From positions 226,686 through 290,685 of the forward strand of contig JADJYM010000004.1 in NCBI GenBank assembly GCA_016719755.1: 64,000 nt of DNA, read 5' to 3'. Every line of letters begins with the position of its first letter. Positions within the stretch are counted from its first letter, which is position 1. The position numbers and the translations under genes were made by a program. The notes beneath the pieces were generated by a model. The model worked only from the letters and a program-made list of their open reading frames with translations, made no database searches and was not told the origin of the DNA. Shown here in pieces: positions 9,142 to 62,335 of this stretch. The DNA comes from Novosphingobium sp. (GTDB lineage: Bacteria > Pseudomonadota > Alphaproteobacteria > Sphingomonadales > Sphingomonadaceae).

Positions 9142-10918
9142 ATGGTCGCGCTCAGCCTCTCAAGCGAACAACAGGCCATGATCGACAGCGTCGGCGGGGC
9201 GCTGGCACAGCGGGGCGAGCGCCCCGCCGACGAAGTGCTGGCGGAACTTGGCGTCGAGGCCCTGCTTGCGGAAGGCGGCAACCTGCTCGACGCCGCGCTG
9301 GTAGCAGAAGCGGCGGGCCGAGAGGGCGCGAATCCCTTCCCGGATGAGCGCATTCTGGTTGCCGCCGCCTGTGTCGGCATGGCCCGCCGCGCGCTGGACG
9401 ATGCCGCAGCCTATGCCTGCGAGCGGGTCGTCTTCGGTCGGCCCATCGGTGAATACCAGGGCGTAGCCCATACGCTCGCCGATGCCGTGACCCAGGTCGA
9501 CGGCACGCGCCTCCTCATCTGGCGCGCGCTTGCCGAACGCGCCGAAGGCCACGCCGATGCCGCGCTGCGCGATGCCCAGGCCTTCTGGTGGGCGGCGAAA
9601 GCCTGCATTCCCGCGATCCGCGCCGCGATGCGCACGTTTGGCGGCTATGGCGTGAGCGAGGATTCGCCGCTCCCCGCGCTCTACCGCACCGCGCGCGCCG
9701 CGCTGCTGGCCGCAGGTGATCCCGACCGGGTGCTGGACGATCCGCTGCCTGCGCTTGCCCCGATCGAACCAGTGCCGGTAACCTTCACGCAGGACAGCGC
9801 GGCCGACGAATGGGAAGCGCGCACCCTGCGCTTCCTCGAAGAGAACTTCACGCAGGACCACAAGCGCGCCTTCGCCGCCGCGCCTGACAACCATATCCCT
9901 GACCTGCACCGCAAGCTGGCGGCAGCGGGGCTGCTGTTTCCGGACTGGCCGGTGGAATGGGGCGGATCGGCCGCACCCGCCTTTGCCACGTCCGCGGTCC
10001 ACCGCACGCTCAGCCGCGCGGGCTGGCCGATCTCGGTGCTGGTGGTGTCCGATTCCATCGGAAAGCTGCTGATGCTGTTCGGTACTGCCGAGGCCAAGGC
10101 GGAAATCCTGCCACGCCTGGCCCGGGGTGAAGCGCTGGCCTGCCTTGGCCTGTCAGAGCCTTCGGGCGGCTCCGACGTGTTCGGCGCGAAAACCCGCGTG
10201 CGCCATGACGGCACCCGCTGGCTGGCCGACGGGCAAAAGGTGTTCACCACCAGCGCTCATCTGGCCGACTATGTCCTGCTGCTGGCCCGGGCCGAGGCGG
10301 GGCTGACCCTGTTCGTCGCGCCGCTGGGAGAATGGGGGCTTCGACCTCGCCCCGGTCCAGACCTTCGCGGGCGAGCGGACCAACATCACGTTCTATTCCG
10401 ACTTCGCCATTGCCGACCGCTACCTGCTGGGCGAGGCCGGCAAGGGCACCAAGGTGCTGGCCGCGACCATGGCGCTGGAGCACAATCAGGGCGATTATTA
10501 CCTGGGCGCGCTGGAACTGGTGCAACGCGAATTGCGCGCGGCTCTGCCCCGGCTGCTGGACCTGCCCGGCGTGCGGGACAAGGCCAATGCCGTGCGCCAT
10601 TCGCTGGCCCGGCTCGATGCCCATGTCGCCCTGCTCGAATGCCTGTCGATCCGCGCGATCTGGGCGGGCGAGGCAGGTGTCTCGCAGCGCTGGTACGGGC
10701 CGATGTGCAAGCTTTTCGGCACCGAAAGCTGGGCCGCCTGCTGCGCCGAGCTGGTCGAACGCTTCGCGCCGCACTCGCTTGACGGCACCATCGAGGCACT
10801 GGCCGTGACCGAAAGCGAAGCGCGCAGCGGCATCCAGGCGACGATCTATGGCGGAACCAGCGAAGTGCAGCGCAGCCAGATCGCGGAAACCTGCCTGGGA
10901 CTGCCGCGCAGCCGGTAG
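9142..10918 (+). CDS. Fused acyl-CoA dehydrogenase, interrupted by a +1 frameshift
   Basis: As given, the frame from 9142 stops at 10782 after unrelated residues, but dehydrogenase sequence resumes in another frame at about 10331 (NGGFDLAPVQTF...) and ends at 10918. One extra base around 10325-10337 (CTGGGAGAATGGGGG) explains this; the corrected product is about 591 residues. Residues 1-205 look like a shortened dehydrogenase made of the C-terminal helical domain (RVVFGRPIGEYQGVAHTLAD, FGGYGVSEDSP). Residues 215-591 are a full dehydrogenase (ACLGLSEPSGGSDVFG, YGGTSEVQRSQI). Such fusions mimic the alpha-beta pairing of heteromeric FadE enzymes used for bulky CoA esters. It is either a broken gene or a sequencing error. 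Confidence 0.75.
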
Positions 10919-16111: not shown

Positions 16112-18487
16112 TCAGAACTTGGCGGTGACGGTCACGCCGTAGGTCGCCGGATCGTTCCAGGTAGCGCCGACATAGTTGATGCCGCCCAGATAGAGCACGT
16201 AGCCGGTGCGGCGAACGTCAAAGATGTTCTTGCCCCAGACCGCGATTTCGTAGTTTTCGTCCGGACCGAACGCCAGCGCGGCGCGGGCGTTGGTGTAGCC
16301 GCCAGCCTTGGTCGTGGTGGCATCGAGCAGCACGGCTGCCTGGGCAGCGGTGAAGCCCTGACCGCCCGGGGTCGAAGCCGGAGCGGTGTAACGGGCCAGG
16401 GTATTGCCATCCTGGGCCATGTCATCGAGCCACGAATAGGTCACGTTGAACTTGAACGTACCCATTCCAATGTTCTGTTCGTAGTTGGCGCCCAGCACGA
16501 ACTGCTTCTCGACCACGCTGACAAGGCGGGTGTCCTTCTTGTCGTTCGGGGTCAGTACGCCGCCGACGACCACGAAGCCGTTGTACTTGGTGTACTTGGG
16601 ATCGATCAGCGAGCCATTGGCGAACAGATCGAGGCCCGGCGCGACACGGACGTTCAGGTCAGCCTCGACGCCCCAGGTTTCCATGCTGGCATTTTCCAGG
16701 ATGGTCTGGCTGGTGCCGCCCACCGCAAGAATGACCGAACGCTGGGCATCGCTGACCTTGTTGTGGAAGCCGGCGATGTTGAAGCGCACCTTGCGGTCCA
16801 TGAACTCGGTCTTGAGGCCGATTTCCTGCTCGTTGTTGATTTCGGGATTGGCCGGGGTGGTGTCGTTAAGGGTGAGCGAGCGCAGCTGCTGGGCGCCCGC
16901 GCGGTAACCCTTGCTGTGCTTGGCATAGACCATAACGTCAGGCGTGATCTTGTAGTCAAGCCCGATGGTGTAGGACAGATTGCTCCAGCTATCCTCGCGG
17001 CCACGGGCGCAATCTGCCGCCAGCAGTGCAAGATTGACCGGGGTACAGGCGGTCAGCGGGCCGCGATTCGGCACGGCACCAGACTGCTGGGTGATACCCT
17101 TGCGGTCATGCGACCAGCGCAGACCGGCGGTGATGTTCAGCGCCTCATTCACGGCATAGCTGGCCTGACCGTAGAGACCCCACGAGGTGTTGTCGACGGT
17201 GCCGAGGAACTGGGCCCAGGCGGCGCTGCCGAAGGTCGAGGAGTGCGACCGGTCCGTACCGGTTTCACGGAACCAGGTTGCGCCCAGCGCGAATTTCAGC
17301 GCATCGTCCATCGCCGAGCCGGTATACTGCAGTTCGCTGGAATACGACTTGAGGTCTACCGTGCTGGCCGTGAAGTGCAGCGGCACACTTAGACCATCGA
17401 GGTCGATCAGGTTGTCCGCCTGGACGCCGCGATAGCCGGTAATCCACTTCAGTTCGCCATTGCCCAGTTCGTACTTGACCTTGGCCATGTAGGTCTGGGT
17501 CTTGACGTCGTTGAACAGGCCGCGCGCGGGAGCACCCGGGTGCGCCGCAGCCGGGGTGGCCGCAACTAGGTCAGGATTGCCGACGAACTTTGCCAGTTCC
17601 GCATCAGCCGAAGCCTGAAGGCCAGCGACCGTAGCCATCGCCTGGGAAGAAGTACCGAACAGGAACGGGTTAAGGAACAGCGCCAGGCCCTGACGCAGAT
17701 CGCCGTCCATCTTGCCGTGCCACCATTCGCCCGAAAGTTGCACGGTCATCTTGTCATAGGGTTGCCAGGTCAGCTTGATGCGGCCGTTGACCGACTCACG
17801 CCCGTTGTACTTGTGGCCGGTATTGACGTCGCGCTTGTAGCCGTCGCGCTCGCCATAGCTCAGCGCGCCGCGGATCGCGAGATTGTCACCCACCGCCAGG
17901 TTGACCACGCCGGTCGCGTTCCATTCGTTGAAACGGCCATAGGTCAGCTTGATCGAGCCCGAGGTTTCGCCCAGCTTGGCATCATTGGTGGTCAGCAGCA
18001 GCGCGCCGGCCGAGGTGTTGCGGCCAAACAGAGTGCCCTGCGGCCCCTTCAGCGCCTGGACGTTGGACATGTCCATCATCTCGGCATTGAGGCCATAGGC
18101 GCGGGCGATGTACATTTCGTCGAGATAGACGCCGACCGAAGGTTCAAGCGTGGCGAGCACGTCGTTCTGCACCTGGCCGCGCATCGAAAGGGCGATCGCG
18201 GTGGGGTTGTTGCTGCCCGCGCGGATGTTGAAGCCCGGCGTGAACTTGCCGAGGTCGCTGAATTCCTTGATCCCCTGGTTCTCCAGCGTTTCGCCCGTGA
18301 AGACGGTGATCGCGGTCGGGGTGTCCTGGATATTGGCTTCGGTCTTGGTGACGCCGATCACGGTGATGACATCGGCTTCGTTTTCGTCAGCGGCCTGCGC
18401 GAAGGCGGTGCCGGACGAAATGGCGATGGCGGAAACGGCTGCGCCGGCCAGAATCCTCGAAACGAGGCGCTTGGTGGTGGTCTTCAT
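16112..18487 (-). CDS. TonB-dependent outer-membrane receptor
   Basis: A 791-residue protein. A signal peptide (LAGAAVSAIAISSGTAFAQA) is followed by a TonB-box-like ITVIG, a plug domain (about 45-165: TPTAITVFTGETLENQGI, VQALKGPQGTLFGRNTSAG) and a 22-strand barrel ending VTVTAKF with the C-terminal Phe typical of outer-membrane proteins. Such receptors import large or hydrophobic molecules in sphingomonads, not only siderophores. A strong GGAGGAGAG ribosome site precedes the ATG, and operator site 3 lies 48 bases upstream, so the receptor probably belongs to the regulon. It heads the operon with MFS, crotonase and phosphatase genes. Confidence 0.9.
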   Translation of the reverse strand: MKTTTKRLVSRILAGAAVSAIAISSGTAFAQAADENEADVITVIGVTKTEANIQDTPTAITVFTGETLENQGIKEFSDLGKFTPGFNIRAGSNNPTAIALSMRGQVQNDVLATLEPSVGVYLDEMYIARAYGLNAEMMDMSNVQALKGPQGTLFGRNTSAGALLLTTNDAKLGETSGSIKLTYGRFNEWNATGVVNLAVGDNLAIRGALSYGERDGYKRDVNTGHKYNGRESVNGRIKLTWQPYDKMTVQLSGEWWHGKMDGDLRQGLALFLNPFLFGTSSQAMATVAGLQASADAELAKFVGNPDLVAATPAAAHPGAPARGLFNDVKTQTYMAKVKYELGNGELKWITGYRGVQADNLIDLDGLSVPLHFTASTVDLKSYSSELQYTGSAMDDALKFALGATWFRETGTDRSHSSTFGSAAWAQFLGTVDNTSWGLYGQASYAVNEALNITAGLRWSHDRKGITQQSGAVPNRGPLTACTPVNLALLAADCARGREDSWSNLSYTIGLDYKITPDVMVYAKHSKGYRAGAQQLRSLTLNDTTPANPEINNEQEIGLKTEFMDRKVRFNIAGFHNKVSDAQRSVILAVGGTSQTILENASMETWGVEADLNVRVAPGLDLFANGSLIDPKYTKYNGFVVVGGVLTPNDKKDTRLVSVVEKQFVLGANYEQNIGMGTFKFNVTYSWLDDMAQDGNTLARYTAPASTPGGQGFTAAQAAVLLDATTTKAGGYTNARAALAFGPDENYEIAVWGKNIFDVRRTGYVLYLGGINYVGATWNDPATYGVTVTAKF

Positions 18488-45054: not shown

Positions 45055-46146
45055 TCAGGCCGGGACTTCCTCCTCGGCCACGAACCCCGCCCAGGTCGCC
45101 ATGTAATCGACGAAAGCGGGTGAAAGCCCCTCGCCCAGCAAGTGGGCACGGCTGACCGGGTTCGGCAGGGAAGCGAAGTCCGGGTCCGCCGCCATCAGCT
45201 GCGGAAAATCGTGGTGGATGATCGCGGCGCGGCCCAGCAGGACGAAATCCGCTCCCGCCTCGAGGCACTGGCGCACCGTGGCGGCGCTCATGATCTTGCC
45301 AGCAACCCCAAGGCGGCAATTGCCGCGCTTCAGGTCGGTGAACCATTCGATCAGCGGACGGCTGGCGAACGCTTCCTCGACCGGGGTCTTGAAGCAGCTC
45401 CACAGCGACATGTCGATGTAGTCGACATCGCCCGATAGCATCAGCGATTCGGCGAGCTCGCGCGCCTCGGCTGTGGCCATGCCGTGGCGTTCGGGCGAGA
45501 TCCGCACCCCCAGCTGGAACTGCGGAGCGGTGCGCGCGCGAATGCCCGCGATGATCGTGTCGAGAAACTTGCGCCGCCCCGCAAAGGAGCCGCCCCAACC
45601 GTCGTCGCGCTGGTTGCCGGTGTCGAGGAACTGGCAGATCAGGTAGCTGTGCGCGCCGTGCAGCTCGACCCCGTCGAACCCGGCCTGCTCGCAGCGCACC
45701 GCCGCCGCGATAAAGGCCTCCACGGCCTCCTCGACCTCAGCGGTGGTCATGGCGCGCGAATTGGTGTCGGCATGGGCAAACGGCCCCATCGACTGCTGAC
45801 CCGTAAATTCCGGCATCGCCCGCCAGCCGCCGTGGTGGAGCTGGACCGAAGACAGGCTGCCCGCCGCGCGAATCGTGTCGGCAAGGCGCCTCAGCCCCGG
45901 CAGGTGATCGTCCGACCACACGCCCAGCTGGCCCTTGAACGCCTGCCCTGCCGGAAGAACGTGCGCCGCCGCCGTCATGGTCAGGCCGAAGCCGCCCTCT
46001 GCGCGCCGCGTCAGCCAGTGAGTCTCCTCGTCCGACAGCGTGCCATCGGCATGGCTCTGCATGTTGGTGAGCGGCGCCAGCATGAAGCGGTTCTTCATTG
46101 CCGGCCCGCGCGTCAGGGTCATCGGAGCGAAGGGATCGGTGGCCAT
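45055..46146 (-). CDS. NADH:flavin oxidoreductase (old yellow enzyme family)
   Basis: 363 residues, a single TIM barrel without the C-terminal Fe-S/FAD domains of true 2,4-dienoyl-CoA reductases. FMLAPLTNMQSHADGTLS, the flavin/substrate site VELHGAHSYLICQFLDT with N-QRDDGWGGSF, and FVLLGRAAIIHHDFPQ are visible. OYE members reduce the C=C of enones with FMN. It is the last gene of the APH-ACAD-ACAD-OYE operon and may reduce a ring enone during pathway operation (inference). Two bases of the usual HxxN are modified to HGAH, typical of a subgroup. Confidence 0.85.
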   Translation of the reverse strand: MATDPFAPMTLTRGPAMKNRFMLAPLTNMQSHADGTLSDEETHWLTRRAEGGFGLTMTAAAHVLPAGQAFKGQLGVWSDDHLPGLRRLADTIRAAGSLSSVQLHHGGWRAMPEFTGQQSMGPFAHADTNSRAMTTAEVEEAVEAFIAAAVRCEQAGFDGVELHGAHSYLICQFLDTGNQRDDGWGGSFAGRRKFLDTIIAGIRARTAPQFQLGVRISPERHGMATAEARELAESLMLSGDVDYIDMSLWSCFKTPVEEAFASRPLIEWFTDLKRGNCRLGVAGKIMSAATVRQCLEAGADFVLLGRAAIIHHDFPQLMAADPDFASLPNPVSRAHLLGEGLSPAFVDYMATWAGFVAEEEVPA

Positions 46147-50736: not shown

Positions 50737-52242
50737 ATGACCCACCCGCGCCTCCATGCCCGGGCGAACCCGGACAAGCCCGCCGTCGTGATGACCGACG
50801 GCTCGCCCGGCCTGAGCTATGGCGAGCTTGAGGACCGGGCCAACCGGGGGGCGCACCTGCTGCGTGAACTCGGCATCGGTCAGGGCGAGACGATTGCCTA
50901 CTGGCTGCCCAACTGCCCCGAAGTGTTCGAGGTCTATTGGGCGGGGCAGCGGGCGGGATGCTACATCACGCCGATTGCCACGGCCCTGACGGCGGAAGAG
51001 GCGGACTACATCATCGGCAATTCGGGCGCGCGGCTGCTGGTGGCGGACAGCGCGATCCCCGGCCTTGCCGCCCTGCCCGCCCGCCCGGGCGTGACCGTGA
51101 TGACCCGCGAGGAATGGCGCGCGGCGCTGGATCGCCAGCCGCAGGGGCAGATTGCGGATGAAGCGCCGGGCTTTCACATGGTCTATTCCAGCGGCACCAC
51201 CGGGCGGCCCAAGGGCATCCGCCTGCCCTTGCCCGAGGGCGAGGTAACGGCCTCGCACCAGCTCGCCGAACAGATCGGCGGGCGCTATGGCCTGGGGCCG
51301 GATGACACCTATCTCTCGCCCGCGCCGCTCTATCACACCGCGCCGCTGGCCTATACCACCGCCGCCCACCGGCTGGGCGCGACCGTGGTGGTCATGCCGA
51401 AGTTCGACGCCGAGGAAGCGCTGAAGGCGATCCAGGACCACCGCGTCACCATGACGCAGATGGTGCCGACGATGTTCGTGCGGATGCTCAAGCTGTCTGA
51501 GACGGTTCGCAAGAGCTATGACCTGTCCTCGCTCCGCCATGTCGTCCACGCCGCCGCGCCCTGCCCCGTGCCGGTCAAGCACGCAATGATCGAATGGCTG
51601 GGACCGATCGTGTTCGAATATTACGGCGGCTCGGAAGGCAACGGCTCGACCGCGATCACCTCGGAGGAGTGGCTGCGAAAGCCGGGTTCGGTCGGCCGCG
51701 CCAGCTGGGGCACGATCCACATCTGCAACGATGCGGGCAACGAGTTGTCGGCGGGCGAACAGGGGATCGTCTATTTCGAGGGCGGCTGGGATTTCAAGTA
51801 CCTGGGCGACGAGGAGAAGACCCGCGATGCCCGCAATCCCAGGCATCCAACCTGGTCGACGCTGGGCGATGTCGGGTATCTGGATGAGGACGGCTACCTG
51901 TTCCTCACTGACCGCAAGAGCTACATGATCATTTCGGGCGGGGTGAACATCTACCCGCAAGAGGTAGAAAACCTGCTCATCACCCACCCGCGCGTGGCCG
52001 ATGCAGCGGTGATCGGCGTGCCAAATCCGGACTTTGGCGAGGAAGTGAAAGCGGTGGTCCAGCCGCTCGATCCTGCCGATGCGACCCCGGCCTTCGCCGC
52101 AGAACTGATCGCGTTCTGCAAGGAACACCTCAGCCCGATCAAGTGCCCGCGCTCGGTCGATTTCGACCCGGCCCTGCCCCGGCTCGACAACGGCAAGCTC
52201 TACAAGCGGCTGATCAAGGACCGCTACTGGAAGAAGGACTGA
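50737..52242 (+). CDS. Acyl-CoA ligase (AMP-forming)
   Basis: 501 residues. VYSSGTTGRPKGIRLP is the P-loop; EYYGGSEGNGSTAI the adenine pocket; WSTLGDVGYLDEDGYLFLTDRKS the hinge, and PRLDNGKLYKRLIKDRYW the catalytic Lys. It resembles ligases for medium or bulky acids. It is second in the crotonase-ligase operon. Its 3' end overlaps the convergent CapA-like gene by 29 bases. Confidence 0.85.
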   Translation: MTHPRLHARANPDKPAVVMTDGSPGLSYGELEDRANRGAHLLRELGIGQGETIAYWLPNCPEVFEVYWAGQRAGCYITPIATALTAEEADYIIGNSGARLLVADSAIPGLAALPARPGVTVMTREEWRAALDRQPQGQIADEAPGFHMVYSSGTTGRPKGIRLPLPEGEVTASHQLAEQIGGRYGLGPDDTYLSPAPLYHTAPLAYTTAAHRLGATVVVMPKFDAEEALKAIQDHRVTMTQMVPTMFVRMLKLSETVRKSYDLSSLRHVVHAAAPCPVPVKHAMIEWLGPIVFEYYGGSEGNGSTAITSEEWLRKPGSVGRASWGTIHICNDAGNELSAGEQGIVYFEGGWDFKYLGDEEKTRDARNPRHPTWSTLGDVGYLDEDGYLFLTDRKSYMIISGGVNIYPQEVENLLITHPRVADAAVIGVPNPDFGEEVKAVVQPLDPADATPAFAAELIAFCKEHLSPIKCPRSVDFDPALPRLDNGKLYKRLIKDRYWKKD

Positions 52243-53338
52243 CCACCCAGCCCGCGCCCTCGCGGCGCAAATTCAGCGGCGGCAGCCCCCCCTTTTCGCC
52301 GATGTCCGCGATGTAGCCCGCGATCGTCTCGGCGCGCTCTCCGGCAGGCACCGGGCGGCCCGGCGGTTCGAACCAGATTGGGATGAACCCGGCCTCGATC
52401 CGCCCGTCCGCGTGCCACAGCAGGCGGCCGATCATGCCATTGACCGCTTCGGGATGAAACGGCGCGAGCGGATAGGCGGGGTCCGGCTCGAAGCCAAACA
52501 TGCGCTTGCGGCGCTCAACCCACTCGGCGCGGGCAGGATGATCCTGCGCCGGGGCCAGCGCGTGGGTTACGACGCAGCCGTTGCCAAGGCCGTGGAACAC
52601 CGGCTTGCCATCGACCAGTTCAATCCCCCGGGCGATATGCGCGTGATGCCCGGCAACGACATCGGCACCGGCGCGGATCGCGGCGGCGGCCAGTGGACGC
52701 TCATAGGCGGCAAGCTCTGCCGGGCGGTGGGTGATCCCCTTGTGCAGCGCGACCACGACAAGGTGCGCAAGGCGCCGCGCGGCAGCGATGTCCGCTTCCA
52801 TAAGCGCCTGCGAGGCCGGATCGATCTCGACAAGTTCGGCCTGCGGCCGACTTGGCCCGCCATCGCTGGCCAGCACGTTCACATAGGCGCAACCGGGCTG
52901 GTCCTGCGCCGCCCAGCACAGCTCCGGCCCGACGCAATTGTAGCTGAGCAGCGCCACGGTTCGCCCACCCAGCGGGATCAGCGCCGGTTTGCGAGCTTCG
53001 GCCAGGCTCATGCCCGCCCCGGCGTGGGCTATGCGATTGCGGTCCAGACCGGCGATGGTTTCGGCCAGTCCGGTCACGCCGCAATCCATCATGTGGTTAC
53101 CGGCCATCGACACCGCGCCGATCCCCGCCCGGGCGAGCGCATCAAGGTGCGCGGGGTTCGCGCCCGGCGCGGGAACATCGCCCGGCATTTCCTCCTCGCT
53201 GGTAGTATAAGGCACTTCCAGATGGCCGATCACGAGGTCTGCCGCGCGGGTCAGCGGGGCGATCCCGGCCAGCCAGTTGTCCGGCTCCGGCACGTCGAGG
53301 ATCAGATCGCCCAGCAGCAGAATCTCTTGCGCGGCCAT
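52214..53338 (-). CDS. CapA-like metallophosphoesterase-fold protein
   Basis: 374 residues. LLLGDLILD, GHLEVPYT, MAGNHMMDCG, HKGITHRP and GHHAHIARGIE are the spaced metal-binding motifs of CapA/PgsA-type proteins (calcineurin-like metallophosphatases linked to poly-gamma-glutamate synthesis). No signal peptide or membrane segment is seen, unlike many CapA proteins, so it is probably cytoplasmic. It is the last gene of the TRAP-CaiB operon, 3 bases after a CaiB gene, with no capsule genes nearby. It may be a hydrolase for a CoA-pathway intermediate (speculative). Confidence 0.75.
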   Translation of the reverse strand: MAAQEILLLGDLILDVPEPDNWLAGIAPLTRAADLVIGHLEVPYTTSEEEMPGDVPAPGANPAHLDALARAGIGAVSMAGNHMMDCGVTGLAETIAGLDRNRIAHAGAGMSLAEARKPALIPLGGRTVALLSYNCVGPELCWAAQDQPGCAYVNVLASDGGPSRPQAELVEIDPASQALMEADIAAARRLAHLVVVALHKGITHRPAELAAYERPLAAAAIRAGADVVAGHHAHIARGIELVDGKPVFHGLGNGCVVTHALAPAQDHPARAEWVERRKRMFGFEPDPAYPLAPFHPEAVNGMIGRLLWHADGRIEAGFIPIWFEPPGRPVPAGERAETIAGYIADIGEKGGLPPLNLRREGAGWVVSPSSSSGP

Positions 53339-53341
53339 GGC

Positions 53342-54526
53342 CTAGATCGCTTTTTCGTCGCGTAGCGCGGCGATGGCCGCCGCATCGTAGCCCAGTTCGT
53401 CCAGCACGGCATCGGTATCCGCGCCCAGCACCGGAACGCGCGGGAGTTCGCCGGGTGCGTCAACCGCAAAGCCCGGGCCAAGCACGCCCAGCGGCCTTTC
53501 ATACCCTGGCAACAGGGCATGCTGCACCAGTCCGCGCGCGGACATATGCGGCTCGCTCAGCGTCTCGCCAATCTCACGCAGGCGCGCGGCGGGGACCCCG
53601 GCGCCGTTCAACTGCGCCTCAAGGTCAGCGCCTTCCCGTGTCAGCAGGTATTCGGTCAGCCAGCCTTTTAGCGCGGCGTAGTTCTCCACCCGCGCGGCGT
53701 GGGTAGCAAAGCGCGGATCGGCCAGCATATCAGCCTTGCCCCACACGGCGAACATCGCTTCAATCTGGTGCTGGTGATTGGCCCCCAGCGCGATCCAGCC
53801 ATCGGCGCAGGCGTAGTATTCGGCCGTCGCCACCAGCCGGAAGCCCCGGTTGCCCGTGCCTTTCGGCGCCTCGCCGGTATAGGACCACACGCTGGCCGCA
53901 GTGCCCATGATCTTCAGCGCGGCATCCAGCATCGCAACGTCGATCGCCTTGCCCTGCCCGGTCGCGTCCCGCTCACGCAGGGCCGCCAGAACCGCGATGG
54001 CGCCAAGATAGCCGGTAAAGCAGTCGACCACCGGAATGCCGATCTTGAACGGCCCCGCGTCTGTCCCGTTCATGATCGCCATGCCCGATACCGCCTGGGC
54101 GATGTGATCGTAAGCTCCCCAGTCGCGCCACGGACCGGTCTGCCCGAAGCCGCTCAAGGAAAGCATGATCAAGCCGGGGTTGCCCTCGCTCAGCGCCTGG
54201 TAGCCAAGGCCCAGCCGGGCAATCACCCCGGGGCGGTAGTTTTCTGCCACCACGTCGGCGCGCGCGGCCAGTTCCCGCGCGATTCGCAGGCCCGCCGCCG
54301 ACTTGAGGTTGAGCGTGACCGAACGCTTGCCGAAATTGGCCGCGGCAAAGGGAACGCTCATCCCCGGCAGGCCGGCGTGCTCGGTATAGTGGCGAAAGTC
54401 GTCGCCCTTTTCCGGCGGCTCGATCTTGATGACCTCGGCCCCCAGTTGCTGGAACATTTGCGTCGCGGTTGGCCCGGCGATGGCGTGGGTGAAATCAAGC
54501 ACCCGGATTCCGGCAAGCGGCAGCAT
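53342..54526 (-). CDS. CaiB/BaiF family III CoA-transferase
   Basis: 394 residues, standard length. IRVLDFTHAIAGPTATQMF at the N-terminus, ANFGKRSVTLNLKSAAGL, SGFGQTGPWRDWGAYDHIAQA and GIPVVDCFTGYLGAIAVLAAL with the likely catalytic Asp are all present. The family transfers CoA between carboxylates. The ATG at 54526 overlaps the stop of the previous CaiB gene. It is one of three in this operon, suggesting alternative CoA donors or acceptors. Confidence 0.85.
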   Translation of the reverse strand: MLPLAGIRVLDFTHAIAGPTATQMFQQLGAEVIKIEPPEKGDDFRHYTEHAGLPGMSVPFAAANFGKRSVTLNLKSAAGLRIARELAARADVVAENYRPGVIARLGLGYQALSEGNPGLIMLSLSGFGQTGPWRDWGAYDHIAQAVSGMAIMNGTDAGPFKIGIPVVDCFTGYLGAIAVLAALRERDATGQGKAIDVAMLDAALKIMGTAASVWSYTGEAPKGTGNRGFRLVATAEYYACADGWIALGANHQHQIEAMFAVWGKADMLADPRFATHAARVENYAALKGWLTEYLLTREGADLEAQLNGAGVPAARLREIGETLSEPHMSARGLVQHALLPGYERPLGVLGPGFAVDAPGELPRVPVLGADTDAVLDELGYDAAAIAALRDEKAI

Positions 54527-55714
54527 CAGCCGCGCTCCTCGGAAAAGGCTCCCGCCGTCTCCAGTGCCGCCGGATCGAAGCCCAGCTCGCCAAGAACTGC
54601 GGCGTTGTCCGCGCCCGCCGCCCCGGCGGCGCGCGGTGCCACCGGCGCGCTGTCCGACAGGGTGAAGGGCAGCGACAGCTGGCGAACCGGCTCCTGCCCC
54701 GCTAGCGGCACCTCGATCACCCGCCCGCGCGCAAGATTATGCGGATGGGCCAGCGCTTCTTCCGGCGAGTAGACCGGCATCGCCTGCGTCTCCGCACCAG
54801 AGAGGAGCGCGAACCACTCTTCGCGACTGCGGGTCAGGAACAAGGCCCTCAATTCAGACTCGACTTCGGCATGGCGGGAAAAATCATGCTGGAGGCCCGC
54901 GAACTCCGGCCGCCCCACCGCCGCGCAGAACCGGCGCCAGTAGGCGGGCTCCATGTCCGTGGTGCAGATGTAGCCGCCATCGCCGCACAGCCACACCCCG
55001 CCCTTGGGATGCCATTGCCCAAGCGGCGGCAGCTTGCCCATGTCATCCTCGCGCCCCATGCCGACCAGCAGCAGCGGCAGCGAGGCATCGGACATCGCAA
55101 CATCGGCGTGCTGGCCCCGCCCGCTCCGCTCGCGCGCGGCCAGCGCCAGCAGCATCGCGATCGAGGCGTGCGCGCCTGCCAGCACATCGGCTACCTGAAG
55201 GCCCGGCAGCGAGGGCACCGGCAGGCCATTCAGCCGCCCGAGCGCGCCCGCCAGCGCGAGCGCCATGGGATCGTGCCCGGCACGGCCGGCATAGGGACCA
55301 TCCTGCCCGGCAAAGCTGACCGACAGGTAGATCAGGCGCGGGTTGAGCGCGGCCATTGCCTCATAGCCATAGCCCATCGCCGCCATCACCCCGGGACGGT
55401 AGTCCTCGATCAGCACGTCCGCGCCGGCGATCAGCTTTTCCAGCACGGGCCGCGCGGCGGCGTGGCCCGGATTGATCATCAGGCTGCGCTTGTTGCGGTG
55501 ATAGCTTGGCCGGGCGCGGCGCCCGCGCGGCCTGTGCTGGATCGTCATCCCGCCCGAACATTGCCGCATGCTTGGCGATTTCGCGCGGATGCTCGATCCG
55601 CACCACCTCGGCGCCCATGTCGGCGGCGATCCAGCTGGGATAGGCGCCCGGCAGGAAGCGCGAGAAATCGACGATTTTCAGGCCATCAAGCGCCGCTGCG
55701 TCACGATCCGGCAT
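54526..55714 (-). CDS. CaiB family III CoA-transferase, interrupted by a +1 frameshift
   Basis: The N-terminal part starts at 55714 (MPDRDAAALDGLKIVDFSRF) and continues to about 55512. The rest of the domain (SYHRNKRSLMINPGHAAARP, ending 54526) is in another frame. One extra base near 55506-55511 explains the break; the corrected product is about 395 residues. VADVLAGAHASIAMLLALA carries the likely catalytic Asp. The start overlaps the dehydratase end by 14 bases. It is either a mutation or a sequencing error. Confidence 0.75.
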
Positions 55715-58078
55715 GACGCGCCTCCGCGCGCTGGGTGGCGGGACCTTCGATGAATGCGGTGATCGCCGCCTCGATCCCGGCGTCGTCCTCCCCCTCGCGG
55801 TTGAAGTTGTCGGCGGTGAGTTCCAGCACCGGCACCCCGGCTGCACGCAGCGCCCGCACCACGAAAGGGTCGGCATCCTGCAAGGCCACGGCGGCATCGA
55901 CCGCATGGGTCTGCGCCTCGTGCACGTGCCACGGCCCGGCCCAGGTCGGCATGCGCAGTTCATCGCCCATGCAGACCACGCGGCTGGCCAGCGCGCGCAG
56001 CGGATCGCCGCCCTGCGACAGGTCACGGATATAACCGTCGGCGGCGAGCGCGAGATACATCGACCAGACGAACACCGCGCCGTGGCTTTCCTCCCACTTC
56101 TGGTAGAAGCCCATTTCGCTCCACAGCCCGCGCCCGACCCACATCAGGCGAATGCGCTCGTTCGGGCAGGCGGGAAGGCCCGCATCGACCCGCGCCTTGA
56201 CCTCTTCGTAGAAATCGCGCGCCGCATCTCGCGCCCATTCGGTGCCGCGATGCCACTGCGGGACCATGGTGGCGGGCATCGAATCGACCACGCCGATCGG
56301 GGCGGGGATCGTCCGGGCGACAAGATCGCGAGTCAGACGGTAGTAGGTCTCCTGCTCGTTGACGAGGTCCATCACCTCGGCAAACCGCTGAGGCGAGAAG
56401 GTGCGGCCGGTCTTCGCCTCGATCCGGGCAATCACCTCGCGCATTTCATCGACCATCAGGTCGACGCGCTCGGCCTCCACCGCCTGCTCCCAGTTGCCGG
56501 GAAGCTGGACCCACCAGTCGGAATAGAGATCGGGACGCGGGTCGATCGTGCGTTCGTAGATATAGCAATCGGCGCCGGTCTGCCCGGCCCATTCCTCGAA
56601 CAGCTTGAGCGTCGGGTCGGAACTGACCACCGCATGGACGAAATTGGGGCGCGGCAACCCCTCCCACGGCGCGTTTTCGGCATCGTTGTCGAAGGCGGCG
56701 GCAAGCCCCTGGGCGCTATAAGCCTCGACATCGGCGGGATAGCCGTGCGCCCGCAGCAGACCCTGATAGCGGCGCGACTGCTGCTTGGCCGCAACGATCG
56801 AGGCCCACCACTGGTTGACCACGAAGGGCACGTCCAGCGCGCGCAGGATTTCCTGCGGGGCATTGGCATTGGCCATGGCGAAGGGCGCACCAGCGGCAAC
56901 CTGTTGGCGCACCGAGGCAAACCAGTCGCGCTGGTAGGCGTTGAAGCTGGCAACCGAGGTCAGCGACTTGCGGCTGCGGCCCTGTTCGGGGCGCGGCCTG
57001 GCAGGCGCGGGTGGCGCAGCCCTTGGAGCGGGCGGTGCCAGCGGGCGGCCCGCGATCAGCGCCGCGACCTGCTCGGCAAAGCGGTCATCGGGCCGGGCCT
57101 TGCAGCGCACGGTTGCGAAGGGAACGCCCTCTCCCAGCGCGCGGCGGATCGCAGCCACGTCCCACGGCGCGGCCTCGTCACCGTCGATCCGCAGGTGAAG
57201 GACGAGGTCGGGTTTCAGGGTGGCAACGTCCTGTGCCACCCGGCGCGCAAGGTCATCGGGCACGGTGACGCGCGGCGGGGTCAGTTCCCCCCGCGCAAAG
57301 GGCATGCCCCAGGCATGGCTTTCGCCCACCACGTGGCCGCCCGCTGCCTCGATCGCGCGGGTCAGGGCGGCGCCTTCGTGCGGCGTGCCGCACAGGTAGA
57401 CGCGCTTGCCGGTCACGGCTTCGGCAGGCACGGCCAGTTGTGCTTCCAGCGCGGCAATGGCCTCTTGTGGAGCCAGCACCGCCGATGCGCCGATGGCTTC
57501 CAGCATCGTGCTGCCCGCAAGCTCGCCCGCACGGCGGCGCAGGTCCAGCTTTGCAAGCAGGTCCGCCTGACGGGACAGCAGCGCATCGGCAGCGGCGATC
57601 CCGCAGCGTCGGGTCGCGCGCCACCAAGGCTGACCAGCCAGTCATCGAGCTGGGCGAGCCGCGCCGCGTTGTAACGGCGCGAAGCGTCGCGGTTCAGGTG
57701 CAGCAGATCGAGGAAATGGACGTGCTCAGGTACCGGCTCGCCCAGTCGGCCCAGTTCGCGCAGCGCCGCAAAGATCTGCGGCTGCTCGATATCGGCCTGG
57801 GTGATCAGCACCGGGACCTGCGGATGGACGGGATCGATCAGCGCTTCCAGCAGCCGCCGTCCGCGCGGCCCCATCTCGGCTTGCCCCAGCACCGCATCGG
57901 CGCGCGGTGCGGCATCAAGGTAGGGCGCGACCAGCCGCACCGGCTGAAAGCCCGCCGCGATCAGGCGCGCGCGCGGAGTATCGAAGCCCAGGGTGCGGAT
58001 CGGGCGGCGGCCCGCTTCCAGCGCGCGGGCGATCTCTCCCAGGGGATCGGCATAGGCGGCAGCCAGGCGGGCGGGCAT
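55701..58078 (-). CDS. Fused 2-hydroxyacyl-CoA dehydratase-like protein, interrupted by a frameshift
   Basis: The N-terminal part from 58078 (GFDTPRARLIAAGFQPVRLV, HVHFLDLLHLNRDASRRYNA) loses frame near 57600; DALLSRQADLLAKLDLRRRA and then the 601-residue rest follow in a second frame. One missing base in CCC at 57600-57602 reconciles them, giving about 792 residues, roughly two HgdA/HgdB-type subunits in series. Canonical members ligate [4Fe-4S] by Cys; here the aligned places read DAVLGQAEMG and VSSDPTLK, with no Cys in the first 155 residues, so radical chemistry may be absent. No activator (HgdC-like ATPase) gene is in the window. Confidence 0.65.
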
Positions 58079-59331
58079 CAGATTGCCCCGGCCTGCCTGA
58101 GCGCGGCGATCTTTTCTTCGTTATAGCCCAGCAGGTCGCCATAGACCGCCTGGTTATGCTGGCCGATCGACACTGCCAGCGCATCATCGAACCCGGTGGT
58201 CGCGCCGGAAAACTGGATCGGGATGCCCGCCGTGCGCAGGTCGATGCTGGAGCCGTGGACCGGATGGGAAACCGCCATGGTCTCCTTGCGCTCGACCACC
58301 CGGGGATCGACCAGCGCGTCCTCAGGGTGACGTACCGGGGCGACCGGCACGCCCTGCGCCTCAAGGCTCTTCACCACTTCGACCAACGGCAGCTGGCGCG
58401 ACCAGGCGTTGATTCGCGCTTCCAGTTCAACCGCGTTGGCAACCCGCGCATCGCGGTTGCAGAAGCGCGGGTCCTCGCTCAGTTCAGGTTCGCCCATCGC
58501 CGCGAACAACCCGCGCGCCAGCGGTTCGTGGACCGCGACGACGGCGGCGTAGCCATCCTTGCATTCGAACACCCCGAACGGCGAAAGCCGCTGCACGGTA
58601 AGCCCCGTGCGCGATGGCATGCCCGCCGCGGCCATCGCCGACCAGTTCTCGATCGCGACGAACGAGGTCAGCGCGCCCAGCATCGAGACGTCGATGTGCT
58701 GGCCCGTGCCGGTGCGGTGGCGCTGCTCGATCGCGGCGAGAATGCCGATCACGGTAAAGACGGGGGCGAGCATATCGGCAATCGGGATGCCGATCCGCAC
58801 CGGCGGCTGGCCGGGCTCACCGCTGGTGAACATCGCTCCCGACAGCGCCTGGACGATCACGTCCATCGCCTTGCCGCCATCGCGGTCGTTCGCGCCGAAG
58901 CCGGACAGCGAGGCGAAGATCACGCGCGGGTTCACCGCGCGGCAGGCCTGGTAGCCGACGCCGAGCCGGTCGGAAGTTCCGGCGGTGAAATTCTCCACCA
59001 CGATATCGGCCTGGCGGACCAGATCGAAGAACACCTCGCGCCCCGCCTCGCTCTTGAGGTCGAGCGAGACGCCCAGCTTGCCGCGCGCGCGGGTGAGGTG
59101 GGACAGCGATATGTCATCGTCGTGGCTGCGCTCCACGGTGATGCCGTCGCGCCCCAGATAGGGGCTGTTCTCGCGCGCCATGTCGCCGCCGCGCGGCTCT
59201 TCCACCTTGATCACTTTCGCGCCAAGGCCCGCCAGCAGCAGGGTGCAATAGGGGCCTGCCAGCGCGCGGGTGAGGTCGATCACCGTCAGCCCTTCAAGCG
59301 GGCGGTGCATGACGTCGCTGCCGTTACTCAC
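58078..59331 (-). CDS. CaiB/BaiF family III CoA-transferase
   Basis: 417 residues. LTVIDLTRALAGPYCTLLLA, GKLGVSLDLKSEAGREV, LSGFGANDRDGGKAMDVI and VRIGIPIADMLAPVFTVIG with the likely catalytic Asp. The stop shares one base with the dehydratase start (TGATG), and the start overlaps the DctP stop (ATGA), so uptake, CoA activation and dehydration are translationally linked. A second ATG (codon 8) is possible. Confidence 0.85.
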   Translation of the reverse strand: MSNGSDVMHRPLEGLTVIDLTRALAGPYCTLLLAGLGAKVIKVEEPRGGDMARENSPYLGRDGITVERSHDDDISLSHLTRARGKLGVSLDLKSEAGREVFFDLVRQADIVVENFTAGTSDRLGVGYQACRAVNPRVIFASLSGFGANDRDGGKAMDVIVQALSGAMFTSGEPGQPPVRIGIPIADMLAPVFTVIGILAAIEQRHRTGTGQHIDVSMLGALTSFVAIENWSAMAAAGMPSRTGLTVQRLSPFGVFECKDGYAAVVAVHEPLARGLFAAMGEPELSEDPRFCNRDARVANAVELEARINAWSRQLPLVEVVKSLEAQGVPVAPVRHPEDALVDPRVVERKETMAVSHPVHGSSIDLRTAGIPIQFSGATTGFDDALAVSIGQHNQAVYGDLLGYNEEKIAALRQAGAI

Positions 59332-60389
59332 TTCGATACTCCCGAAATTCCGGCCGGGCAGCGGATTTCACCCCCGGCGATGAGGCGCTGGGCCTCGGTC
59401 AAGACCGGCACCCCGTCGATGCCATAGGCGCTGAGCCCCTTGGCCTGGCGAAGTGCGAAAATGTTGTAGAGCGCGGCGAAGCGCCGCTGGTCAGCCGGGG
59501 GCAGGGCCAACATCTCCACCCCGTGTCCCGAGGCATAGGCCACGCCGTCCTTCTCGGCCTTGAGGATCTGCCGGGCGAGCGCGCCCTCCCATACTGGCTT
59601 CGACTGCGTCATCAGGGCCTGCAGATCGGGCGGCAGGCGCCGCCACGCCGCGTCCGACATGGCCCGCGCCGGATAGGCGCCGCGGCTGAAATGAAGCGCG
59701 GTGAAATGGCGGGCAACCTCGGCGAAATGAAGGCTCTTGATCGTGTCGGCGGGCGCCACCACGCCGTCGATCACCCCCTTGGCCAATGCCGAATAGACCT
59801 CGCCCATCGGCATGTTGACGGGGTCCGCGCCCAGTTCGCGCAGCACGTCGATCGCATCGCTCTGCGCGCGCAGGCGCAGGCCCTTGAGATCGGCCAGGCT
59901 GCGCACCGGACGGTCGCGGGTCAGCACTCCCGGGAAGTTGCCGCCCTGCACCGCGAGCACGTGGAGCCCTTCCAGTTCCTTGCCGAACTGCGGGAACTGC
60001 CCGGCCAGACAATCGTAGACCGCAACCTGGTCCTGCAGGCTCTTCACCCCGCCATAGAAGCCCGACTGCGCGCGCAGCAGGTGCGCCCCGCCGCGGGAGT
60101 AGATCGGCGTGATCAGACCGATATCGGCAAGGCCGTGGCGGATTTCGACCATGCTCATGTCAGACGAAAGCAGCGCTCCCGACCAATAGGGACGGAACGC
60201 GATCCGCCCGCCACTGGCCTGCTCGACATGACGCATCCAGTCGATGTCCGCCTTGCTGAAGGGATGGCCCGGCGGATAGGGCGAGGCATAGGTCAGCACG
60301 ACCTCGGCATTGGCCTGCGCTGGTGGCTGGGGCACGGGTTTGCAGGAGGCAAGCAGGGCGGCGGCGACGAGCAGGATGAACGTGCGCAT
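59328..60389 (-). CDS. dctP: TRAP transporter solute-binding lipoprotein (DctP family)
   Basis: 353 residues. The N-terminus is a lipoprotein signal (LLVAAALLASC) with the lipobox Cys16. PYPPGHPFSKADIDWMRHVE and GLRLRAQSDAIDVLRELGADP are typical of the DctP fold, and the Arg in RLRAQ is the usual carboxylate ligand, so the ligand is an organic acid. It starts 4 bases after the DctM gene. It delivers substrate to DctQM and is coupled to the first CaiB gene. Confidence 0.85.
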   Translation of the reverse strand: MRTFILLVAAALLASCKPVPQPPAQANAEVVLTYASPYPPGHPFSKADIDWMRHVEQASGGRIAFRPYWSGALLSSDMSMVEIRHGLADIGLITPIYSRGGAHLLRAQSGFYGGVKSLQDQVAVYDCLAGQFPQFGKELEGLHVLAVQGGNFPGVLTRDRPVRSLADLKGLRLRAQSDAIDVLRELGADPVNMPMGEVYSALAKGVIDGVVAPADTIKSLHFAEVARHFTALHFSRGAYPARAMSDAAWRRLPPDLQALMTQSKPVWEGALARQILKAEKDGVAYASGHGVEMLALPPADQRRFAALYNIFALRQAKGLSAYGIDGVPVLTEAQRLIAGGEIRCPAGISGVSK

Positions 60390-60393
60390 GAGA

Positions 60394-61701
60394 TCAGCCT
60401 CCCACCACCGACGGCAGCCACAACGTCAGCGCCGGGAAGCCGATCAGGAAGCCCAGGTGAACGAAGTCGGCGGCCAGGAAAGGAATGACGCCCCTGAAAA
60501 TCGTGCCGAGCGACAGGTCCTTGGCGATGCCCTGAATGACATAGATATTCAGGCCCAGGGGCGGATGGATGAAGCCGATCTCCATCGTGCGCACCAGGAA
60601 GATGCCGAACCAGATCGGGCTGTAGCCCAGGTCGACGGCAATCGGCAGGAAGATCGGCGTGGTCAACAGCATCAGCGCCACTCCGTCCAGGAACGAACCC
60701 AGCAGCAGCAGCAGCAGCGCCATGACAATGATCGCGGTAAGCGGGCTGGCATCCAGATCGCGGACTATCCCGGACAAGGCATCGGTAATGCCGGTGATGC
60801 TGACGAACGTGGCAAACAGCAGCGCGCCGATGATCACCACATAGATCATGCCCGTGGTGCGCAGGGTGGATTGCAGCGCGTCGACCATCGCCGCCCGGCT
60901 GAACTGGCCGCGCACCGCCAGCAGCAGCATCGCGCAGGTAACGCCGACCGAGGCCGCTTCGGTGGGAGTGAACCAGCCAATCATCAGCCCGCCGATCACG
61001 AAGACGATCAGGGCAAAGATATCGATCACCTTGCGCAACGAGCGCAGGCGTTCGGACCAGGGAACCCGCGCCGTTGCCGGTCCCAGCCCGGGCATGAAGG
61101 CGCACAGGATCACAATCGCGATCATGTAGAAGATCGCCTGGCTGATCCCCGGCACGACGGCCGCCGCGAACAGCTTGCCGATCGATTGTTCGGCGATGAT
61201 CCCGAACACGATCAGCGCGCCCGATGGCGGAATCAGCGAACCCAGCGTGCCGCCGGCCGCCAGCGCGCCCGAGGCGAACCCCGGGTGATAGCCAGCCTTG
61301 CGCATTTCCGGCAGGGCGACCGAGCTGATCGTCGCCACGGTGGCCAGGCTCGACCCGCTGATCGCGCCAAACCCTGCGCAGCCCCCGATCGAGGCCAGCG
61401 CCAGCCCGCCGCGCCGGTGGCCGACAAACTTGGCCGCAACGTCGAAAAAGTCGCGGCTCGCCCCCGCCGCGAAGCACAGGTGCGCCATCAGCAGGAACAG
61501 GGGCAAGACGCCCAATTCGTACTTCATGATGACTTCGAACGAGACGACGCCCGCCTTGATCACCGCCGCTTGCGGCGAGATCATCACCGCCAGCCCGCCC
61601 AGGCCGACCAGCGACAGGCTGTTGCCGATCGGCACGCCCGCCGCCAGCATGGCCAGCAGGATCAGGATGCCGCACAGGCCGATCAGTTCGGGCGCGATCA
61701 T
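60394..61701 (-). CDS. dctM: TRAP transporter large permease subunit (DctM family)
   Basis: 435 residues with about 12-13 hydrophobic segments. GIPVGNSLSLVGLGGLAV is a typical N-terminus in shape, GSLIPPSGALIVFGIIAEQS and the C-terminal FIHPPLGLNIYVIQG carry signature Pro/Gly motifs. It moves the solute using the sodium or proton gradient. The ATG overlaps the DctQ stop (ATGA at 61698-61701). Confidence 0.9.
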   Translation of the reverse strand: MIAPELIGLCGILILLAMLAAGVPIGNSLSLVGLGGLAVMISPQAAVIKAGVVSFEVIMKYELGVLPLFLLMAHLCFAAGASRDFFDVAAKFVGHRRGGLALASIGGCAGFGAISGSSLATVATISSVALPEMRKAGYHPGFASGALAAGGTLGSLIPPSGALIVFGIIAEQSIGKLFAAAVVPGISQAIFYMIAIVILCAFMPGLGPATARVPWSERLRSLRKVIDIFALIVFVIGGLMIGWFTPTEAASVGVTCAMLLLAVRGQFSRAAMVDALQSTLRTTGMIYVVIIGALLFATFVSITGITDALSGIVRDLDASPLTAIIVMALLLLLLGSFLDGVALMLLTTPIFLPIAVDLGYSPIWFGIFLVRTMEIGFIHPPLGLNIYVIQGIAKDLSLGTIFRGVIPFLAADFVHLGFLIGFPALTLWLPSVVGG

Positions 61702-62252
61702 GCTTCATGGCCCCCGTCGGCGCGCAAGGCGTAGCGCAGGAACCGCCAGGCAATTAGCACGGCGAAGACCGTCCACAGCAGGCGCAGCCAGCGCAGCGGA
61801 ATATGCAGCAATTCGGTCTGTTCGTGGCCGTTCCACAGTTCCGCGCCGATCCAGGCCGATCCGGCCGCGAAGACCAGGAAGACGAATGCGGAGAGCAGCG
61901 CGGCAATCCGCGCCAGACGGGCGGCGGTGACCGCCCGCAATCGTTCGGTCAGCATGTGAACCGAGGCGTGACCGTGAACGATGGTGACGATCAGCATCGC
62001 CGAACTGGCCAGAATCACCACCATGGCCTGCACCAGTTCGATCGAGCCAAGCAGGTGAAGCCCGGTGTGACGCCCCGCGACCGCCAGCGTATCCGCCGCC
62101 GTCGCGCCCAGCAGCCCGAAACCGCCCAGCAGATAGGCGATGCGCGCCAGCGGCCCATGCGCCTGCGCAGGGACATCGCTTACCAGATCGGCCATCGTGT
62201 CTTCGGGCGATGGATGATCCTGCCCTGAAGGGGACGCCTTGCGTTCCGTCAT
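61698..62252 (-). CDS. dctQ: TRAP transporter small permease subunit (DctQ family)
   Basis: About 184 residues. Four hydrophobic segments are visible (IAYLLGGFGLLGATAADTLA, LVQAMVVILASSAMLIVTIV, LLSAFVFLVFAAGSAW, LLWTVFAVLIAWRFL). The ATG at 62252 follows GGAGAGGACA, and an upstream ATG in frame has no ribosome site. It is first in the ten-kilobase operon ending at 52214, divergent from a MarR gene. Confidence 0.8.
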   Translation of the reverse strand: MTERKASPSGQDHPSPEDTMADLVSDVPAQAHGPLARIAYLLGGFGLLGATAADTLAVAGRHTGLHLLGSIELVQAMVVILASSAMLIVTIVHGHASVHMLTERLRAVTAARLARIAALLSAFVFLVFAAGSAWIGAELWNGHEQTELLHIPLRWLRLLWTVFAVLIAWRFLRYALRADGGHEA

Positions 62253-62335
62253 TGTCCTCTCCGCCTCGCTGCGCAAGTTGCCCTTGCGCACGCTGGTTGA
62301 CACGGGCAGGGCAGACCCCTCTAATACCCCATGCC

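Follow-up and report, generated by a model that had tools for sequence, protein, structure and literature searches.

Proteins of the HGD-D superfamily are known for chemistry that requires low-potential Fe–S clusters and an ATP-driven activator. A fused member of this superfamily is encoded in Novosphingobium sp. (assembly GCA_016719755.1, contig JADJYM010000004.1, positions 226,686–290,685), at positions 55701–58078, minus strand, of the 64,000-nucleotide stretch analyzed here, which we call the window. The protein joins in a single chain the two subunits of benzoyl-CoA reductases and 2-hydroxyacyl-CoA dehydratases, and the reading that we favor, at a probability of roughly 0.55, is that it works without an Fe–S cluster and performs ionic chemistry on a CoA thioester. 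An earlier note on this DNA had proposed a repurposed, non-radical family member; at the level of anatomy this proposal is supported by the loss of ligands, the lack of an activator, and an aerobic-looking neighborhood, and we infer that the fused protein is a working enzyme of that kind.

The class I benzoyl-CoA reductase BzdNO (PDB 8S02) and MbdON (9G87) have the same two-subunit fold. The N-terminal half of the window protein resembles BzdN, the C-terminal half resembles BzdO, and the tyrosines that contact the thioester oxygen are shared. Unlike BzdNO and MbdON, the window protein is fused, possesses none of the ligand cysteines tested, and has Gln in place of Glu65, and no activator was found in its genome. 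(R)-2-Hydroxyisocaproyl-CoA dehydratase HadBC (3O3M), which associates with the class III CoA-transferase HadA, shares the fold and the HGD-D domain with the fused protein but differs in having ligands and an activator. Excerpts of PMC11574389 describe HadBC as carrying one cluster per subunit and being served by an activase, and attribute the use of a radical route to the β proton of 2-hydroxyacyl-CoAs, whose acidity is too low for an ordinary base to remove it. The double-cubane cluster protein DCCP (6ENO), which in excerpts of PMC11971306 holds a double cubane in each monomer, also stands apart from the fused protein with its missing cluster ligands. TudS, a 4-thiouridine-5′-monophosphate desulfidase, is described in the same excerpts as a superfamily member that departed from radical chemistry and as a single-domain protein that retains a [4Fe–5S] cluster; the fused protein would share the departure but has no cluster ligands. 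A literature search limited to open-licence PMC papers returned no description of this gene cluster.

Gene structure and fold

The gene is split over two minus-strand open reading frames (ORFs), 57413–58078 and 55701–57506. That these encode one protein with two HgdA/B-like domains, as the earlier note had supposed, is borne out by an intact homologue from an uncultured Novosphingobium (L042), which comprises 795 residues in a single open frame. In tblastn searches, its residues 1–156 align to 58078–57611 and residues 189–793 to 57515–55710, in different frames and at 89–90% identity. A single frameshift is thereby placed at about 57515–57611, where a break had been suspected near 57600; the ORFs and codon-usage segmentation mark the same zone. 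The first part of the gene (57611–58078) encodes the beginning of a BzdN/HadC-like, electron-relay-type N-terminal half devoid of Cys ligands, while the remainder (55701–57515) encodes the rest of that half, a linker, and the catalytic-type half. The closest kin at this locus are Novosphingobium, and the host genome measures 3.7 Mb in 16 contigs (completeness 100, contamination 1.32).

Pfam PF06050 (HGD-D) matches residues 215–587 of the 601-residue ORF (E value 1.2e-40; 140.6 bits against a curated cut-off of 28.4), corresponding to 55746–56864 on the minus strand and identifying the BzdO/HadB-like half of a superfamily member. The N-terminal piece has no Pfam match; across the fused family, profile comparison identifies this half as HGD-like (BzdN, E value 5.4e-17; HadC, 2.4e-11), as does the predicted structure of one homologue. 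The superfamily fold is thus represented by two homologous halves, one of the BzdN/HadC type and one of the BzdO/HadB type. The NCBIfam HadB model scored 68.5, below its cut-off of 750. Judged from sequence, the gene falls within the HGD-D superfamily and outside the 2-hydroxyacyl-CoA dehydratases as these are defined by cluster and activator.

Loss of cluster ligands

In BzdO, excerpts of PMC11971306 assign the catalytic cluster ligands to Cys95, Cys128, and Cys380, with Glu65 and His131 adjacent, and describe the thioester oxygen as bound by Tyr97, Tyr298, and Gln274. The corresponding columns were set by HMMER alignment to BzdO, HadB, and MbdO and read in 39 fused rows (38 homologues and the window protein); at the Cys128 site, two canonical rows sit one column off. 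No cysteine is present at any of the three sites in any fused row. The Cys95 site is occupied by Glu in 36 rows and Asp in 3 (Glu codon at 56724–56726, minus strand as for all codons given here) and the Cys128 site by Ser in 28 and Thr in 11 (Ser codon at 56619–56621), while 39/39 rows show a gap at Cys380, the segment that bears this ligand having been deleted to leave a short loop in the window protein (55866–55889). Gln occupies the Glu65 site in 38/38 filled rows, and the His131 site displays Thr in 36 and Ala in 3, such that the fused rows lack a benzoyl-CoA reductase-type [4Fe–4S]–OH2 site with its Glu65/His131 acid–base pair. The residues matching Tyr97, Tyr298, and Gln274 are Tyr, Tyr, and Arg in every one of the 39 rows (codons 56718–56720, 56055–56057, and 56130–56132, respectively), and they belong to 67 polar or aromatic positions that are invariant in the fused family.

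Cysteine is likewise absent from each of the three ligand columns of the relay half in the 39 filled of 40 fused rows, the window having been entered as two pieces; canonical reference rows have Cys in 3/3 at all three columns. Across the same columns, 36 unfused partner proteins contain one Cys in total, in one protein (the partner at locus L076, not an HGD gene, was omitted). The earlier claim that both domains have lost their ligand cysteines thus extends to the whole fused family. An artefact of one broken gene is ruled out as the source of this loss, which is fixed in the family because 38 intact, single-frame fused homologues show the same columns. Replacement cysteines elsewhere were also considered and rejected: the fullest Cys column of the fused family reaches 28/39, none is fixed, and none is a ligand column.

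Relatives and evolution

In named genomes, 194 relatives were confirmed by a scan; the best 80 of these were analyzed, comprising 38 fused proteins, 39 unfused proteins, 2 truncated at contig ends and counted apart (L070 and L074), and 1 without a clean ORF that was left out (L115). Among these 80, the fused proteins all derive from Proteobacteria-titled records (Sphingomonadales, Niveispirillum, Povalibacter, Alteromonas, and Rubrivivax), and the unfused proteins are mostly from Firmicutes, with one from Chloroflexi, two from Actinomycetota, and two from proteobacterial bins. Going by taxonomy, the named Proteobacteria are presumably aerobes and the Firmicutes anaerobes. All three catalytic cysteines and one more are kept in 30 of the 39 unfused proteins. 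The other nine (Lachnospiraceae, Intestinimonas, and kin) are Cys-free and display N, D, G, and D at the four Cys sites in 9/9 rows; these loci (L085, L086, L087, L088, L089, L093, L106, L110, and L116) retain the thioester tyrosines.

A more careful tree was built from 38 rows (9 of the 39 fused, 8 of the 9 Cys-free, and 21 Cys-bearing) with the ligand columns masked, in which the fused group and the Cys-free Firmicutes group each occupy one side of a branch (100/100). A single origin of the two Cys-free groups was rejected (2 changes; approximately unbiased test, p-AU 4.03e-5), with the provisos that the tested group was named after a quick tree had been inspected, that the tool warned of long branches of the Y (see below) and fused groups meeting, and that change counts cannot separate gain from loss, loss being the direction we infer. 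The rejection of a common grouping makes two or more losses of the catalytic cluster the most likely history, and, because the unfused partners hold a single Cys over three relay columns, these losses most likely occurred in a lineage whose relay half was already without ligands.

The residues left at the vacated sites raise the alternative of a metalloenzyme, in which Glu/Asp, Ser, and nearby acids would bind a single divalent metal acting as a Lewis acid on the acyl-CoA. Most of the residues that stand in for the cysteines are polar or acidic (E/D, S/T, S), the position following the Cys128 site holds Asp in 35, Glu in 3, and Ala in 1 of the 39 fused rows, the Cys333-type site of the N-terminal half is D, E, or S, and the N, D, G, D pattern of the Cys-free Firmicutes would fit as well. 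We nevertheless regard a metal site as unlikely, given that all fused rows have lost the segment of the third ligand, that the two Cys-free groups carry different residues, and that no His appears at the ligand columns (judged by column; invariant His681 and His740 lie elsewhere in the sequence).

Within the host's taxonomic family, an HGD-D gene is present in 17/199 genomes, which we sorted into 5 fused, 10 of a related type, unfused and termed Y, and 2 that carry canonical pairs. The Y-type proteins aligned (4 of 10) keep two of the three ligand sites, with CxxC and CDC retained and Asn at the third ligand (L036:8154–12396; L032 and L033). The Y loci inspected encode a degenerate partner of about 290 residues, and L036 additionally a long CoA-transferase. 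The family is uncommon: in a class-level sample, 14/385 genomes match and only 4 do so strongly (E < 1e-100). The host genome contains a second HGD-D pair (L034:8431–10853, contig C16) that is also without catalytic Cys, with P, G, and D at the sites, and that lies near a CoA-transferase-like gene and a putative TonB receptor. In Geosporobacter (L077:8761–13612), a relay-type subunit without cluster ligands accompanies a catalytic-type subunit with four Cys, possibly a one-cluster intermediate form.

Activator

The activator (component A, PF01869) was sought by its Pfam model and by a motif of the NDxCAAGTG type, which we take to be its mark. PF01869 has no match in the whole host genome, in agreement with the earlier statement that an HgdC-type activator is missing. 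It has none in 4/4 other fused-type genomes of the same taxonomic family, and none above the cut-off in 10/10 Y-type genomes, where one fragment falls below it. Both canonical-pair genomes (G088 and G152) have PF01869, with a motif-bearing frame in the same loci, and the two canonical pairs of G088, a positive control, retain their cysteines. An ordinary oxygen-sensitive radical dehydratase with a ketyl mechanism would share fold and superfamily with the fused protein. The contrast with these controls, the replacement of all ligands and of Glu65, and the activator-free genome render it wholly improbable. The earlier note had also asked whether homologues lie beside activator genes in anaerobes. 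Half of this holds: the Cys-bearing unfused relatives exist and a motif-bearing activator was found in 7/7 Firmicutes genomes tested, but the motif occurs in 0/79 family loci, each retrieved with at most 10 kb of flanking sequence.

Proposed chemistry

In the pathway that we propose, a carboxylate would enter via a TonB receptor and a TRAP transporter and would be given CoA by one of the class III CoA-transferases, after which the thioester would sit in the C-terminal half, its oxygen held by the two tyrosines and the arginine. It would be transformed by ionic, enolate-type acid–base chemistry, perhaps a hydration/elimination, an isomerization, or another reaction, in which the acidic residue replacing Cys95 may serve as general acid or base. 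The former electron relay in the N-terminal half would now be structural. The pattern of lost and kept residues suggests that the fused protein probably does ordinary, non-radical chemistry, and one may speculate that a substrate with an activated β position, for example, a polycarboxylate, needs no radical route. Extended to the family, the proposal is that a branch of the benzoyl-CoA reductases and 2-hydroxyacyl-CoA dehydratases shed all Fe–S clusters at least twice, in the fused proteins of aerobic Proteobacteria and in gut and rumen Firmicutes, and now performs ionic acyl-CoA chemistry in the old pocket; we hold this tentatively, at slightly less than even odds.

If correct, the fused protein would be a cluster-free enzyme derived from a cluster-dependent radical one, within an uncharacterized carboxylate pathway. 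Fixed and repeated loss of the cluster with a kept thioester pocket would reveal a path from a radical enzyme to an ordinary one, for which the Cys-bearing unfused relatives offer a natural comparison with and without cluster. A cluster-free member would further open the fold to experiments in air and would caution against taking "dehydratase" labels in such genomes at face value.

Several observations weigh against ionic chemistry in a cluster-free pocket. The Tyr/Tyr pair is also present in Cys-bearing and canonical relatives and thus indicates retention of the pocket, not a change of chemistry. A CoA-transferase lies near 29/30 unfused Cys-bearing relatives as well, and, given this similar context, cluster-bearing and cluster-free forms might carry out one and the same reaction overall. 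PF01869 is absent from 4 of the 9 named fused-type genomes and matched in 5 (one below cut-off), with the motif absent from six inspected loci of such genomes. Finally, the frameshifted copy in the window may be non-functional.

Integrity of the window copy

Decay of the gene into a pseudogene in this strain would account for the frameshift and for a second one in the next CoA-transferase downstream (about 55509–55541, from tblastn of the L042, L043, and L051 homologues). Both pieces of the fused gene are, however, under purifying selection, with nonsynonymous (dN) and synonymous (dS) rates of 0.077 and 0.56 for the N-terminal piece (dN/dS about 0.14) and 0.063 and 0.57 for the C-terminal piece (about 0.11), and the frames are open in 38 homologous loci. 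A further break at about 10.3–10.6 kb affects an acyl-CoA dehydrogenase (window 9142–10918) roughly 45 kb from the fused gene, where codon-usage segmentation and Pfam place the C-terminal domain in another frame. Because of these additional breaks, near and distant, an assembly error is a fair explanation of the frameshift; decay is a possible cause too, and we deem a pseudogene in this strain unlikely. The question leaves the family-level finding unaffected.

Gene neighborhood

The fused gene belongs to a conserved operon on the minus strand. Directly upstream lies a class III CoA-transferase (58078–59331, PF02515), followed by the TRAP transporter genes DctP, DctM, and DctQ (59328–62303; PF03480, PF06808, and PF04290). 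On the other side are the frameshifted CoA-transferase (54526–55711, start approximate; PF02515 on ORF 54526–55569), a third one (53342–54526, PF02515), and a PGA_cap (CapA-like) protein (52214–53338, PF09587). The aerobic-looking surroundings described earlier were located in the window as a P450 (29758–30978), a TonB receptor (16112–18487), and an OYE (45055–46146).

Genes within 7 kb were counted in the 34 fused-type loci that span 19 kb or more. Class III CoA-transferase and TRAP transporter relatives occur in 34/34 each, TonB receptor relatives in 25/34, and PGA_cap in 21/34; across 38 loci, 106 CoA-transferase ORFs were clustered (single linkage, fragments counted). This constant association, together with the complete loss of cluster chemistry, would suit a non-catalytic partner of the CoA-transferases, a scaffold, carrier, or allosteric subunit that binds CoA thioesters while the transferases or PGA_cap do the chemistry. 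The 67 invariant polar or aromatic residues, pocket included, and purifying selection on the catalytic-type half argue otherwise, and we consider such a role a rather poor prospect compared with catalysis by the fused protein itself.

For the unfused relatives, counts rest on few reference sequences and loci of uneven length. A CoA-transferase lies near 9/9 Cys-free Firmicutes relatives, PGA_cap near 8/30 Cys-bearing and 3/9 Cys-free relatives, and CitMHS-type transporters near 8/30 and 7/9, respectively. The transporters in Firmicutes loci L077, L085, and L108 are CitMHS/DcuC-like, a hint at di- or tricarboxylates. CoA-transferase matches in the PDB are broad and fix no substrate; nor does PGA_cap, which matches three PDB sequences that bear the name poly-gamma-glutamate synthesis protein and scores far below the cut-off of the NCBIfam MslH epimerase model. 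In Proteobacteria and at some of the Firmicutes loci, a PGA_cap protein recurs together with the dehydratase-like gene. Elsewhere in the window (1995–4199), a 734-residue protein contains two CoA-transferase III stretches, representing a tandem or fused transferase.
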